Assembly: GCF_003330725.1 (NCBI RefSeq)
Contig: NZ_CP030840.1
Location: 2,418,001 to 2,482,000 of the forward strand
Source: Acidisarcina polymorpha
GTDB lineage: Bacteria > Acidobacteriota > Terriglobia > Terriglobales > Acidobacteriaceae
Direction: 5' to 3'
Length of the DNA: 64,000 nucleotides
Both the position numbers and the translations under genes were made by a program. Below the pieces are notes generated by a model that saw only the letters and a list, made by a program, of their open reading frames with translations, was not told the DNA's origin and searched no databases. Positions 30,180-36,368 of the stretch are shown here, one piece after another; within the stretch, counting starts at the first letter, position 1; each line of letters opens with the position of its first letter.

Positions 30180-30416
30180 GAAGCAGCAGGCAGACGGGTT
30201 GATCGAGCTCTCCCGGCAGCGGCCAGGGGAGTAGGCGCCATCCTCCCAGCCGTGTCGTTCTTCTCAGCCCTCGCACTCCGGTAGAATCAAATGGCCGAAG
30301 AGGTCATGGCACTCATACTGGGTGAAGAAGACTAGGGTTTTCCGGTACGCAAAATCAATATCGAGGGACTTGCCGGACTAGCGGGAGGGACCCGATTAGA
30401 AAGAACGTGTGTGTTG

Positions 30417-30725
30417 ATGTCGCTCCTTGCATTCGCCCTTCCCGCTCTGCCGCCAGGCATTGTCTCGTTTTTGCCGTTCTTGCTCATCATCGTCGTTTTT
30501 TACTTCCTGTTGATCCGCCCCAATCAGAACAAGCAGAAACAATGGCAGGAGATGCTGAACAATCTCAAACCCGGAGATAAGGTGACGACGACCGGTGGCA
30601 TCCGCGGTACCATCCTCGCTCTTCGCGAGGATGTCATCCAACTCCGCCTGCCTCCCGACAACATCAAGGTCGAAATTCTGAAGAGCGCCATTGCCTCGGT
30701 GACCACTCCAGAGGAAGGGAAGTAG
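30417..30725 (+). CDS. yajC: Sec translocon accessory subunit YajC
   Basis: A ~102-residue single-pass membrane protein. One hydrophobic segment (about residues 16-37, SFLPFLLIIVVFYFLLIRP) is followed by the YajC signature QNKQKQWQEMLNNLKPGDKVTTTGGIRG. It joins SecDF in the holotranslocon. Three adjacent in-frame starts exist (GTG 30411, TTG 30414, ATG 30417); no ribosome site clearly decides. secD begins 12 bp after its stop. Confidence 0.93.
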   Translation: MSLLAFALPALPPGIVSFLPFLLIIVVFYFLLIRPNQNKQKQWQEMLNNLKPGDKVTTTGGIRGTILALREDVIQLRLPPDNIKVEILKSAIASVTTPEEGK

Positions 30726-30737
30726 GCCGGGAATTCC

Positions 30738-32354
30738 ATGCGAAAAAACCTCAACACGAAAATCATTGTCATTCTGGCCGCTTTAGCTATTTGCGTCTTT
30801 GGCATCACCGGCATCCCGCATGGCGTGACACCGGCGGCGCTCAAAAATGCATTGGTTAGCCGGATCAATCTGGGCCTCGATCTTCGCGGCGGGACCCATC
30901 TGGTGTTGCAGGTCCACGTCGAAGAGGCGGTCGGCGCCACCGCCGATTCAGACGCGGCTCGCATCCAGACCGAGCTTCAGCAGGCTGGTATCACCGTAGG
31001 GTCGGTGGTTCGAGACCCGCAGCGCACCGACGCCATTCAGATTCAGGGTGCCCCGGCCGACCGGGTGGGCGACATCCGGACGACGTTGAACAATCGATAC
31101 AGCTCCCAATACGACATCACCTCGAGTAGCGGAACCTCCTGGACCTTGACCATGAAGCCGACTGCGGTGAGGGACCTCGAACAGCGCACGTTGGAGCAGG
31201 CAATCGAAACCATCCGCACCCGTATCGATTCGTTGGGTGTCAGCGAACCGGTCATTCAGGAGTACAACCTCGGCAGCAACCAGATCCTCGTTGAGCTCCC
31301 CGGCGTGGATGACCTGGCGCGGGTGCATGACATTATTCAGTCAACTGCCCGGCTTGAAATACATGAAGTCCAAGGCGGACCATGGCCCGACGAGGCCGCC
31401 GCACTCCAGGCGCTTGGCGGCAATCTTCCTTACGACTCGGTGCTGCTCCATGAGCCCGCCGGGACCGCGAGTCCGAATAGTCCTGACCAGGTCTACCAGG
31501 TCAAGAAAGCGCCGGAGGTTGCAGGCACGGATATTCGCGATGCCCAGACCGGCCGCAATCCGAACACCAATGAGCCGCAGGTTGTCTTTTACTTGACCCA
31601 TGCTGCCGGCGACCACTTCGCGGACTTTACCGGCGCGAATAAAGGCAAGAGTCTCGGCATCGTGCTCGATAACAAGCTCCGCGAAGTCGCAACCATTCGC
31701 GATCAGATTCGCGATACCGGCACAATCTCCGGCGGGGCGATGGGCGAGCAGCAGGCCAAAGATCTCTCCATGCTGCTGCGCACTGGCGCGCTGCCGGCCT
31801 CGATCAGTTATCTGCAGGAAAGCACCATCGGTCCCTCGCTGGGCGCTGATTCAATCCGCGAAGGCGTCATGGCTTCAGTTGTCGGCATGCTGGTCGTCAT
31901 GGTCTTCATGCTCGTCTACTACCGCGGCGCCGGCATCAATGCCGACCTTGCTCTCTTTTTGAACCTCGTCATTCTGCTGGGCTTCATGGGCTACTCGGGA
32001 TCGACGCTGACGCTTCCGGGCATTGCTGGAGTCATCCTGACGATCGGTATGGGCGTTGATTCGAACGTGCTGATCTTCGAGCGCATCCGGGAGGAGTTGC
32101 ACGCTGGCAAGTCTCCTGCAGCGGCCGTCGACCAGGGCTTTGCTCATGCCTGGACGACGATCATCGATACTCACGTGACCACGATCGTTTCGGCTGCCAT
32201 CCTGTTCATCTTTGGTACCGGCCCGGTGCGCGGTTTCGCTGTGACACTGACCATCGGTCTGCTCGCTAACTTGTTCACCGCGGTATTTGTCTCCCGGGTG
32301 ATCTTCGACTCTAACCTCAACCGCAAGCAGCGCGGAGAGGCGCTTTCCATATGA
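30738..32354 (+). CDS. secD: protein translocase subunit SecD
   Basis: A 538-residue proton-driven helper of Sec export. It has TM1 (about 9-27), the SecD motif NLGLDLRGGTHLVLQV (44-59), the periplasmic P1 head, then five TM segments in the last ~170 residues with TIGMGVDSNVLIFERIREE. The length is usual for the family. Its stop overlaps the ATG of a 53-codon gene (ATGA at 32351-32354) that separates it from secF. Confidence 0.95.
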   Translation: MRKNLNTKIIVILAALAICVFGITGIPHGVTPAALKNALVSRINLGLDLRGGTHLVLQVHVEEAVGATADSDAARIQTELQQAGITVGSVVRDPQRTDAIQIQGAPADRVGDIRTTLNNRYSSQYDITSSSGTSWTLTMKPTAVRDLEQRTLEQAIETIRTRIDSLGVSEPVIQEYNLGSNQILVELPGVDDLARVHDIIQSTARLEIHEVQGGPWPDEAAALQALGGNLPYDSVLLHEPAGTASPNSPDQVYQVKKAPEVAGTDIRDAQTGRNPNTNEPQVVFYLTHAAGDHFADFTGANKGKSLGIVLDNKLREVATIRDQIRDTGTISGGAMGEQQAKDLSMLLRTGALPASISYLQESTIGPSLGADSIREGVMASVVGMLVVMVFMLVYYRGAGINADLALFLNLVILLGFMGYSGSTLTLPGIAGVILTIGMGVDSNVLIFERIREELHAGKSPAAAVDQGFAHAWTTIIDTHVTTIVSAAILFIFGTGPVRGFAVTLTIGLLANLFTAVFVSRVIFDSNLNRKQRGEALSI

Positions 32355-32512
32355 GTGATCTTGAATCTAATCCGGCTCCCACCAACTCACCAGCGAGCAT
32401 GAGTCTCCTTCAGGGCTGCATCTGGTTTCTCGGCGGTCTGCTGGTATCGGGAGCGGCGCTGTTGGCTCAAGCGGCCGTGCTGCACGCCATTGCCGAAAAC
32501 AAGGCGAAGTAG
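32351..32512 (+). CDS. 53-residue single-TM protein between secD and secF
   Basis: The ATG at 32351 overlaps the secD stop by four bases (ATGA), so translation is coupled. The product has a hydrophilic N-terminus rich in Pro/Ser/Asn (1-17), one membrane helix (about 20-45, LLQGCIWFLGGLLVSGAALL) and a short charged end AENKAK. I recognise no family. Its place inside the secD-secF pair, its coupling and its topology suggest a small accessory subunit of the SecDF complex. secF starts 68 bp later. Confidence 0.6.
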   Translation: MSDLESNPAPTNSPASMSLLQGCIWFLGGLLVSGAALLAQAAVLHAIAENKAK

Positions 32513-32580: not shown

Positions 32581-33540
32581 GTGGAACTGTTTCGTGGCGT
32601 TAATATCGACTGGCTGGGGAAGAAGTGGTACTTCCTCGCCTTTTCGCTGATCTTTAGCGTGGCAGGCGTCTTCAGCCTGCTCTTCTGGCATCATCTTCCC
32701 CTCGACGTGGACTTCCATGGCGGCACTCTGGTGCGGGTGAAGTTCGATCACCAGCCGGATGCCGACCGCATTCGCCAGGCGGTTGACCGCGCCGGCATTC
32801 ACGATGCGCGCATCACTACCTATGGCCCCGCTCAGAACAACGAAGTCATCATCGCTCTGGCCCAGCGAGATACTCACGAGACCTCACTCGATGCAGGCCG
32901 TGCCGCGATCGTGAACGCGCTCAAGGCAAACTACCCTCAGAACAACCCTGAAGTGCGCAGCGTTGAAATCGTCGGCCCGCAGGTGGGTTCTGCGCTTCGT
33001 AACCAGGCGTTGTTGGCTACGGGCTATTCGCTTGCTGGCATGCTGGTCTACCTGTGGTTCCGTTTCGAGCTGATCTATGGCGTCGCCGCGGTTGTCGCGG
33101 TCTTCCATGACACGCTGATCACGGTAGGCTTCTTCAGTCTCTTCAATATGGAGATTTCGCTCACGGTCATTGCCGCGATCCTGACCCTTATCGGCTACTC
33201 GATGAACGATACGATCGTCGTCTTTGACCGCATCCGAGAAAACCTCGCGGTCTCGCGCCGGGAAAGCCTGGCTGACGTTGTGAACCGGAGCATCAACCAG
33301 ACTTTGAGCCGGACGGTCTTGACCTCCGGCCTCACTTTCCTCACCGTCCTCTCGCTGTTCTTCCTCGGTGGCGAGGTCCTGCATCCATTCTCCTTTGCAT
33401 TGGTGGTTGGCATTCTTATTGGCACCTACTCGTCGATTGCAGTAGCCGCCCCCATGCTGGTCGCCTACCAACAATGGCGAACCTCTAAGGGGAAGGGCCG
33501 GGTAGCTGCTCTTCCTGCAGCAAAAAGAAGCAGGGCCTGA
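32581..33540 (+). CDS. secF: protein translocase subunit SecF
   Basis: A 319-residue partner of SecD: TM1 (about 18-38), motif VDFHGGTLVRVKF, periplasmic P4-type loop, then five TM segments including GYSMNDTIVVFDRIRENL. It starts at GTG 32581. After the stop there is a sigma-70-like promoter for tonB (33563-33590), so transcription of the energy-transduction genes can be separate. Confidence 0.95.
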   Translation: MELFRGVNIDWLGKKWYFLAFSLIFSVAGVFSLLFWHHLPLDVDFHGGTLVRVKFDHQPDADRIRQAVDRAGIHDARITTYGPAQNNEVIIALAQRDTHETSLDAGRAAIVNALKANYPQNNPEVRSVEIVGPQVGSALRNQALLATGYSLAGMLVYLWFRFELIYGVAAVVAVFHDTLITVGFFSLFNMEISLTVIAAILTLIGYSMNDTIVVFDRIRENLAVSRRESLADVVNRSINQTLSRTVLTSGLTFLTVLSLFFLGGEVLHPFSFALVVGILIGTYSSIAVAAPMLVAYQQWRTSKGKGRVAALPAAKRSRA

Positions 33541-33690: not shown

Positions 33691-34428
33691 ATGTTTGAAG
33701 ACAGCTTGGTGGAATCAGGCGGCAGGTTGAAGACTAAGAGCAAATGGTGGGCGATTGGCGCGTTCATCTTTAATGGCAGTATCCTGGTCGTTCTTATTCT
33801 CCTTCCGCTCTTGAATCCCGAAGCATTACCCACGCAGGCCCAGGCGATGTTGCTTGCGGCGCCTCCACCACCCCCACCCCCTCCGCCTCCTCCGCCTCCG
33901 ACCCCTCCCGTGAAGGTTGTCAAGATACAGTCGGAAATGATGAATAACCAGCTGACTGCTCCCAGCAAGATCCCAAAGGTCATTAAGCAAATCACTGAGT
34001 CTGCCGCGCCTCCTCCGTCTGCGGGCGGCGTGGCCGGCATGGGCGGTGAATCCGGCGGGGCCGCCGGTGGCGTAATGGGTGGGATTCTCGGTGGTATCGG
34101 CACAGGAGCCCCGCCCGTCGTTAAGGCGGCAGCACCGAAGAAGATTGCCGTCTCGTCAGGCGTGATGGCGGGCAACATCCTGAATAAGACCCAACCCCAA
34201 TACCCAGCCATCGCCAAGGCTGCTCGTATTCAGGGTACAGTCGTCCTCCAGGCCACCATTTCGAAGACGGGCACCATCGAAAACCTTACGGTCGTCAGTG
34301 GTCCTCCAATGCTCCAGCAGGCGGCCATGGATGCGGTGCGGTCCTGGCGCTATAAGCCTTATTTGCTGAATGGCGAACCAGTTGAGGTTGGAACTCAAGT
34401 CAACGTAGTCTTCAGCCTCGGCGGCTGA
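33691..34428 (+). CDS. tonB: energy transducer TonB
   Basis: A 245-residue inner-membrane protein spanning the periplasm. TM helix at about 21-41, then 13 consecutive prolines (58-70) and a Gly-rich stretch (about 105-140) in place of the usual Pro-Lys/Pro-Glu rod, then the TonB C-terminal domain (about 165-245: PQYPAIAKAARIQGTVVLQ, MDAVRSWRYKPYLLNGEPV). It transmits proton-motive force from ExbBD to the TonB receptors, three of which are encoded at 17-29 kb. exbB starts 94 bp later. Confidence 0.92.
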   Translation: MFEDSLVESGGRLKTKSKWWAIGAFIFNGSILVVLILLPLLNPEALPTQAQAMLLAAPPPPPPPPPPPPPTPPVKVVKIQSEMMNNQLTAPSKIPKVIKQITESAAPPPSAGGVAGMGGESGGAAGGVMGGILGGIGTGAPPVVKAAAPKKIAVSSGVMAGNILNKTQPQYPAIAKAARIQGTVVLQATISKTGTIENLTVVSGPPMLQQAAMDAVRSWRYKPYLLNGEPVEVGTQVNVVFSLGG

Positions 34429-34521
34429 TTCCCTGCCGCTGAGGTGTATTTCACCGCAACGGTCAATTTTCCGCAGTTCTTCTAGCTGTGTTAGTAGTTA
34501 CTCCTTAGGAGGAAAGATTCA

Positions 34522-35262
34522 GTGATTCTCGCTCACCTCACTCAAGTCGCAGTTCACTCGGCAACCCTCAGCTTCTTCCAGGAGGCGCCGGCCGTTGGCT
34601 TCAGCCCTCTCGACCTCTGGCATAACATGGGTAACCTTGCCAAGGGCGTGGTTATCATCCTGTTCATCATGTCGATCTGGTCTTTGGCCGTCATCATTGA
34701 CCGGGCCCTCTACTTCAGTGCCGCCAAGAAGCAGTCGCGTGAATTTGCTCCCCGCGTGGCTGGTGCGCTCAAGGAAGGCAAGCTTGACGAAGCCATCAAA
34801 GTCGCGGACCGCAACAAGAAATCTCATCTTGCCGAAGTCGTTACCGCCGGCCTCCAGGAGTTTCGCAACTACGGCAGCGGCGGCGCCATCAGCGAGGAGC
34901 AGATTGAGTCAAGTCAGCGTGCGCTTGAGCGGTCCGAGGCGATCGTTCATGCCAAGCTGAAGCGCGGCCTGGGCGGCTTGGCCACCATTGGTTCCACGGC
35001 TCCCTTCATCGGCCTCTTCGGAACCGTCGTCGGTATCTTGAACGCCTTCCAGCAGATCGCGACTCAAAAGACCTCCGGCATCGGCGCAGTAGCCGGTGGT
35101 ATTTCGGAAGCACTAGTCACCACCGCTTTCGGCTTGCTAGTGGCGATCCCGGCAGTTATGACCTTCAACTATTTCACCGGTAAAGTGGAAGCTTTCGACG
35201 TCGAGATGGATAACTCATCGAGCGAACTGATCGACTACTTTATTAAGCAGTCGAAGCGGTAG
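34522..35262 (+). CDS. exbB: MotA/TolQ/ExbB proton-channel protein
   Basis: A 246-residue protein with three TM segments: about 40-60, 150-172 (TIGSTAPFIGLFGTVVGILNAF, the family signature) and 190-212. It forms the pentameric channel in which ExbD sits. It starts at GTG 34522 with an excellent TAGGAGGA ribosome site, which suggests high expression. It could equally be called TolQ by sequence; the adjoining tonB supports ExbB. Confidence 0.9.
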   Translation: MILAHLTQVAVHSATLSFFQEAPAVGFSPLDLWHNMGNLAKGVVIILFIMSIWSLAVIIDRALYFSAAKKQSREFAPRVAGALKEGKLDEAIKVADRNKKSHLAEVVTAGLQEFRNYGSGGAISEEQIESSQRALERSEAIVHAKLKRGLGGLATIGSTAPFIGLFGTVVGILNAFQQIATQKTSGIGAVAGGISEALVTTAFGLLVAIPAVMTFNYFTGKVEAFDVEMDNSSSELIDYFIKQSKR

Positions 35263-35310
35263 TCGAAGAGCTTAAAGCTAGCTTCGGGCGAGATCACCGT
35301 TTATCGTGGG

Positions 35311-35338
35311 AGTGAAGAGCCGCCGATGCTTCTTCACT
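35311..35338 (+). promoter_or_regulatory. hairpin between exbB and the first exbD
   Basis: AGTGAAGA (35311-35318) pairs with TCTTCACT (35331-35338) around a 12-base loop; outside it more pairs form with one mismatch. There is no U-tract. Such an intercistronic stem could stabilise the exbB part of the transcript and so help set the 5:2 ExbB:ExbD ratio; this role is inferred. Confidence 0.45.
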
Positions 35339-35430
35339 CTCCGATCTTCCGGTCGCTAGGCTTAAGCGCTCGCTTTTAAGTTCAATCGGGATCTGGGCTG
35401 GAATCAAAGATCAAGTATGGGGCGCAGTTA

Positions 35431-35886
35431 ATGGCAATCAATAAGCGGGACGAAGGCAAGAAAGTTAATTCGAACATCAACGTGACGCCGATGGTTGACG
35501 TCATGCTGGTGCTGCTCATCATCTTCATGGTCATCACGCCGATGTTGCAGAACAAGGTCAACGTCGACCTGGCGAAGACGGATAATCCCACTGCCATGCC
35601 GGATGCCGACAAGGAAGATTCGGTCGTGGTTGCCATCACCCGGGATAGTCGGATTTTCCTCGGACAGAACCAGGTCTCCCAGGCAGATCTCTCATCTAAG
35701 GTGCGAGATGCGCTGGAAAATAAGACCAGCAAGCAGATTTTTATCCGCGCGGATACTCGCGCGAAGTACGGTACCGTCACCGATGCAATCGATGAAGTGC
35801 GTACCGCCGGGGTTGACGAGGTCGGTCTGTTGACTGAGCAGCGCCAGACCCTAACCAAGCCTCCCGCGGCAGCTGGCGGCCAGTGA
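35431..35886 (+). CDS. exbD: ExbD/TolR biopolymer transporter (first copy)
   Basis: A 151-residue single-pass protein: cytoplasmic N-tail, TM helix with NVTPMVDVMLVLLIIFMV carrying the essential proton-path aspartate D23, and a periplasmic domain. The C-terminal part (FIRADTRAKYGTVTDAIDEVRTAGVDEVGLLTE) is the standard ExbD/TolR fold. It is the first of two adjacent exbD genes, 41 bp apart. Confidence 0.9.
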   Translation: MAINKRDEGKKVNSNINVTPMVDVMLVLLIIFMVITPMLQNKVNVDLAKTDNPTAMPDADKEDSVVVAITRDSRIFLGQNQVSQADLSSKVRDALENKTSKQIFIRADTRAKYGTVTDAIDEVRTAGVDEVGLLTEQRQTLTKPPAAAGGQ

Positions 35887-35927
35887 TCCAGTAAACGGCT
35901 TAATCTGTAGAATCGAGGATTTGACTT

Positions 35928-36368
35928 ATGGCAATGGGTGGTGGTGCTGGACCGGGCGGTCTCTCATCGGATATCAATGTCACTCCGCTAATCGACGTTC
36001 TGCTGGTGCTCCTTATCATCTTCATGGTAATCGTGCCGGTGACTCCGAAAGGTCTCGATGCGCTGGTTCCGCAGCCTCCGAAGAACCACGACCAGCAGCA
36101 GGACAATGATCGTACGATCGTGATCCAGGTGACCTCCAGACCAGGCGGTGGAGAACCCGGATACAAGATCAACGATACGGACGTCTCCAAGAGCGATCTG
36201 CTGAGCAAATTGACTGGAATCTTTGCGACTCGCGCTGAACGTGTCATGTTTGTTAAGGGGGACGATAAATTGAACTTTGGCGATGTCGCTGAAGTCATCG
36301 ATATCGGTCACGCGGCCGGTGTTGATCACATAGGTCTCATTACCCCAAAAATAGCTGAGGGACAATAA
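35928..36368 (+). CDS. exbD: ExbD/TolR biopolymer transporter (second copy)
   Basis: A 146-residue paralogue of the preceding gene. The TM helix NVTPLIDVLLVLLIIFMVIVPV keeps D23. The periplasmic part has a different middle (NHDQQQDNDRTIVIQVTSRPGGGEPGYKI) but the same C-terminal FVKGDDKLNFGDVAEVIDIGHAAGVDHIGLI. Tandem divergent ExbD copies are known in other phyla and may form a heterodimer in the ExbB pore; here both keep the functional aspartate. Confidence 0.9.
   Translation: MAMGGGAGPGGLSSDINVTPLIDVLLVLLIIFMVIVPVTPKGLDALVPQPPKNHDQQQDNDRTIVIQVTSRPGGGEPGYKINDTDVSKSDLLSKLTGIFATRAERVMFVKGDDKLNFGDVAEVIDIGHAAGVDHIGLITPKIAEGQ

Follow-up and report, generated by a model that had tools for sequence, protein, structure and literature searches.

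The question raised by this locus is whether a short open reading frame (ORF) between secD and secF of Acidisarcina polymorpha is a gene and, if so, whether its product works with SecDF, which is a member of the RND superfamily. The window, meaning the whole stretch of 64,000 nucleotides that was analysed, is from the chromosome of A. polymorpha SBC82. A first-pass annotation had described a 53-residue gene with a single transmembrane (TM) segment, coupled to secD by an ATGA overlap, and both features are there to be seen. The ORF runs from an ATG to a TAG inside a secD–secF gap of 226 nt and encodes one hydrophobic stretch, and the TGA that ends secD (32352–32354) lies within the ATGA at which the small ORF begins (Table 1). 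The final codons of secD contain a putative ribosome-binding site, 10 nt 5' of the ATG. The ORF cannot be a C-terminal extension of SecD, since it is in a different reading frame. Downstream, 3' of secF (33691–36368), there is a tonB gene with a long proline run, followed by one exbB-like and two exbD-like genes, named by similarity; the tonB/exbB part of this gene order is maintained in several of the genomes that carry the small ORF.

Table 1. Features of the secD–secF region, in positions of the window
Feature	Position	Strand	Evidence
yajC, same operon, upstream of secD	30411..30725	+	TIGR00739, E 2.5e-25
secD	30738..32354	+	TIGR01129, E 2e-130
GGAGAGG, putative ribosome-binding site of small gene	32334..32340	+	sequence; GGR-GAG codon bias
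ATGA, small-gene start codon overlapping secD stop codon	32351..32354	+	sequence; overlap in 6/7 carriers
Small single-TM protein gene, 53 aa + stop	32351..32512	+	sequence, same-locus homologues, codon-position and dN/dS tests on homologue pairs
Approximate transmembrane segment, residues 22-40, including G22, F26 and G29 of the common core	32414..32470	+	
secF, GTG start	32581..33540	+	TIGR00966, E 2.7e-92

The predicted protein of the window has a maximum 19-residue Kyte-Doolittle mean of 1.97, and an AlphaFold2 model built from two sequences consists of one helix over residues 14–52 (mean pLDDT 77.7). In keeping with its claimed lack of a known family, searches of Pfam, NCBIfam and the sequences in PDB turned up no relative. 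Pfam contains an AcrZ model, and no Pfam match to AcrZ was obtained at E values up to 1; the YajC models (PF02699/TIGR00739) matched neither the window ORF nor its six relatives described below. A search of 61 genomes with the single window protein was also unproductive (best non-self match E 0.02), and therefore the secD–secF junctions were read directly. Of 150 genomes of the family, 143 yielded a SecF. Both secD and secF were present at 162 of the loci read, but not at five others; the 162 include 25 named records, of which a few come from beyond the family. Between the two genes lies a gap of 8 to 390 nt, with a median of 87.5, and most gaps have no such ORF. Many gaps of non-carriers (e.g. 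L070, L246 and L259) look by eye like imperfect repeats rather than ORFs. The SecF proteins themselves also differ in length: in the window and in 29 other genomes SecF gives a single full-length match, whereas in most others of the family the match is split in two, with ~70 extra residues near residue 110–120 (in G019, about 210 nt of secF lie between the two matching pieces).

At this spot, seven genomes, which represent five genera of the family, carry an ORF of 42–53 codons, each encoding one hydrophobic stretch and all seven lying between secD and secF. The protein is 53 aa long in the window genome (G000), 51 in G112, 49 or 48 in G064, 48 in G122, 46 in G124 (Acidipila sp. EB88, also recorded as L072), 45 in G067 and 42 in G063. 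In six of the seven the start overlaps the secD stop, although not always in the same form: ATGA in G000, G124 and G067, ATGATG in G064, TGATG in G122, and TTGA in G112, where the start is TTG and the contig ends within secD. In G063 the ORF begins 57 nt downstream of the secD stop. The charges flanking the helix suggest that most members are probably oriented N-out/C-in, with G112 and G067 ambiguous, and conservation was not significantly concentrated on one helix face (P 0.06). Outside the family, none of the 48 junctions that could be read at other loci has a copy; a further 16 could not be read. Two kinds of candidate were set aside. L269 (G130) was dropped, as its ORF is the end of a secD whose frame is broken near the end, perhaps through a mistake in sequencing or assembly, the genome being fragmented. 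Remnants of the gene are not claimed for G142, G165 and G094, which have AAAGAAATTTAG by the secF ribosome-binding site, because words like it also turn up in non-carriers, for instance L236.

Dinucleotide shuffling gives an idea of how often such ORFs are to be expected. With the ATGA held fixed, 34 of 20000 shuffles of the window gap retained an equally hydrophobic frame of 53 codons or more. Over the 162 gaps, 0.4 such ORFs were expected and 8 were counted, which came to 6 genomes after removal of the artefact L269 and of one duplicate record (L072, the same organism as L169 and given one count only).

Sequence similarity ties most of the carriers together. A profile of five members, run against 398 genomes of the family, recovered two genomes that were not in it, G112 (E 3.7e-9) and G122 (E 2e-7), and both of these blind matches are located between secD and secF; further weak matches (E 4e-4 to 0.05) were treated as noise. 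When the profile was built from G063 and G112 and run on the same 398 genomes, the window ORF came third after the profile's own two rows (E 5.1e-4), and of two weaker matches (E 0.0016 and 0.0024) one has internal stops and one lies in a 272-codon frame. A four-member model without the window gave the window ORF an E value of 2.9e-4, with the next ORF at 38. The profile of all six other carriers scored it at E 0.026 (0.163 in its own whole genome), a weaker result that we would put down to the divergence of G064 and G122, whose rows dilute the model. A search across the class, in 399 genomes, added one weak match, within a 319-aa frame. Over 30 residues, five of the proteins (G000, G063, G112, G124 and G067) can be aligned with no gaps around a core, [QR]G-x3-F-x2-G. 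With its invariant F taken as position 0, the glycines at −4 and +3 are invariant as well and −5 is Q or R; in addition, +14 is polar and +19 basic. Against these five, G064 and G122 have no significant score. When they are aligned by eye to the core frame, an acidic residue at +14 and the basic residue at +19 are kept, and their homology to the other five would follow from position and from this hand-seen pattern (polar +14, basic +19), at a non-significant score.

It had been suggested that synonymous and nonsynonymous changes be compared among relatives that keep the ORF, and the comparison favours a gene. The proteins of G064 and G122 align end to end without gaps, and their genes differ at 12, 7 and 29 sites in codon positions 1, 2 and 3 (29 of 48 at the third), with dS 1.37, dN 0.23 and a ratio of 0.17; in 0 of 2000 column shuffles was the nonsynonymous share so low. 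For G124 and G067 the differences are 17, 10 and 35 (35 of 62 at the third), again with 0 of 2000 shuffles, and here dS is saturated. Purifying selection thus acts on the small protein in these two within-genus pairs. More distant pairs give weaker signals (G063–G112, P 0.049; G000–G112, P 0.045; G000–G063, P 0.0105), and all pairs except G064–G122 used protein-guided gapped alignments, which somewhat favour synonymous counts. Selection on the window copy was measured only against distant relatives, as no second species of its genus was found.

In the overlapping carriers the secD codons 5' of the small-gene start are GGA or GGG followed by GAG. This GGR-GAG pair occurs in 6 of 6 such carriers, whereas of the 128 other junctions 11 have it (Fisher P 1.7e-6); the six rows are not independent, coming from four genera. 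The isoleucine codon ATA, which makes ATGA possible, is found in 4 of the 6 and in 4 of the 128 (P 8e-5). secD ends in TGA in all 6 and in 16 of the 128, but in the former the overlap by itself almost requires this stop. Of 137 junctions, three did not conform to the codon pattern and 134 did; L269 was kept out of this test, and G063, with its later start and the codons GGC-GAA, was counted among the 128. The small ORF is almost certainly a real, translated gene.

The gene is found in only 7 of the 143 secF-bearing genomes of the family. A quick SecD+SecF tree with 139 rows puts every carrier within one group of 27 rows representing 26 genomes (G112 appears twice). A careful tree of 41 rows, in which the base of this 26-genome group has weak support (30/16), places the carriers on separate branches (G064/G122; G112; G000; G063; G124/G067); a single clade of carriers is rejected (p-AU 4.6e-24), and at least five changes are required. 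Because the proteins are homologous in at least five genomes, one origin followed by several losses fits best, and the gene probably arose once, in the ancestor of one subclade of the family. A decaying copy can be seen in G019 (L144), the sister of G112, where a homologous stretch has frame-breaking indels and has lost the helix while its flanks and stop region are still alignable; the gene is therefore dispensable in that lineage. Absence or frame disruption in close relatives had been put forward as grounds for giving up the ORF, and this is what most of the family and this one sister species have. Together with the many genomes without the gene, the frameshift in G019 means that SecDF works without the small protein. 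The first-pass annotation had guessed at an unrecognised SecDF subunit of the lineage; what stands of this is a real gene, under selection and not filed before, that its position links to secD, and what falls is a standard or universal acidobacterial subunit.

What, then, could the protein do? The best explanation, to which we give a probability of roughly 0.5, is that it is a real 53-aa inner-membrane protein with a single helix that serves as an optional partner of SecDF. SecDF is the most likely partner in view of the position in the operon and the start-stop overlap. Ribosomes that finish secD would re-initiate at the small gene, so that the protein would be made in step with SecD; its helix may pack on the membrane domain of SecD or of SecF, or between the two, and may tune the stability or activity of SecDF in the way that AcrZ and YajC act on AcrB. 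The protein would be an accessory one, being absent in most of the family. The chances that it acts by binding SecD or SecF seem to us about even. A bolder version, in which it would be a third, lineage-specific subunit of SecDF, made in step with SecD and binding the membrane domain as AcrZ does so as to alter substrates or conditions, having arisen in one family and been repeatedly discarded, is less likely than not.

There are precedents for small proteins that act on RND pumps, among them AcrZ (49 aa), YajC and WatS1 (55 aa) (PMC10710835). AcrZ occupies a groove of AcrB (PMC7267776), and YajC binds AcrB near the AcrZ site (PMC10710835). In all seven genomes the protein resembles such AcrZ-like partners in having a single helix and about 50 aa, and its proposed partner, like that of AcrZ, is a membrane protein of the RND superfamily; however, the two share no sequence match, and AcrZ partners a drug pump whereas the small gene lies within the secDF operon. 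YajC is likewise a small single-helix protein of the secDF operon, and according to PMC7897499 this SecDF accessory protein has no known physiological function; it has its own gene here and the small protein lacks a YajC domain. WatS1 is a small protein that tunes an RND transporter, WatABO (PMC10710835), as is proposed here, although host and pump are unrelated.

It is also possible, though less probable than the partnership, that the small membrane protein is real but has no more than the operon in common with SecDF and serves an unrelated function, for example in membrane stress or in another complex. Operons mix functions, as the tonB/exbB/exbD-like genes 3' of secF illustrate, and operon position alone could mislead; the patchy distribution and the decay in a sister species also agree with an unrelated role. 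On the other hand, six of the seven carriers have the start placed exactly on the secD stop, and all seven copies stay between secD and secF, with the other profile matches in the 398 genomes being weak.

A regulatory role would be different again: the ORF could be a nascent-chain monitor, or a leader that controls secF through its own translation. A short ORF with a membrane signal directly 5' of a sec gene invites this comparison, as SecM, MifM, VemP, ApdA and ApdP are such monitors (PMC7897499), and ApdA, ApdP and VemP are encoded next to secDF, yet upstream of secD and not between secD and secF. For Sec monitoring substrates, the criteria of PMC7897499 call for a length of 80–200 aa, >40 residues between the localisation signal and the arrest site, and a conserved C-terminus. 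By these criteria the small ORFs do not belong with SecM, VemP, ApdA and ApdP: they encode 42–53 aa with <20 residues after the helix, in short and variable tails, and their C-termini are not conserved. The stretch from the small-gene stop to secF also varies widely in length and sequence, and selection is seen on the helix, which makes a leader improbable. Even though the gaps reach 390 nt, mostly hold no such ORF and lack it in most relatives, a chance, untranslated ORF in a long spacer is the least credible reading of all, given the homologues at the same junction, the third-position excess, the selection on ribosome-binding codons and the 0.4 ORFs expected over 162 gaps.

Among the open-access papers listed on SecDF, YajC, small membrane proteins and acidobacteria, no report of the gene was found, and none of any kind came up on SecDF in Acidobacteriaceae; the gene is a genuine, narrowly distributed and previously unnamed one. 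Its product is a testable candidate partner for the SecDF export motor, and the family offers a convenient natural experiment, since the gene is intact in some near relatives, lost in others and decaying in one. If the partnership is true, the tuning of RND-superfamily proteins by single-helix partners would extend from drug pumps to protein translocation.
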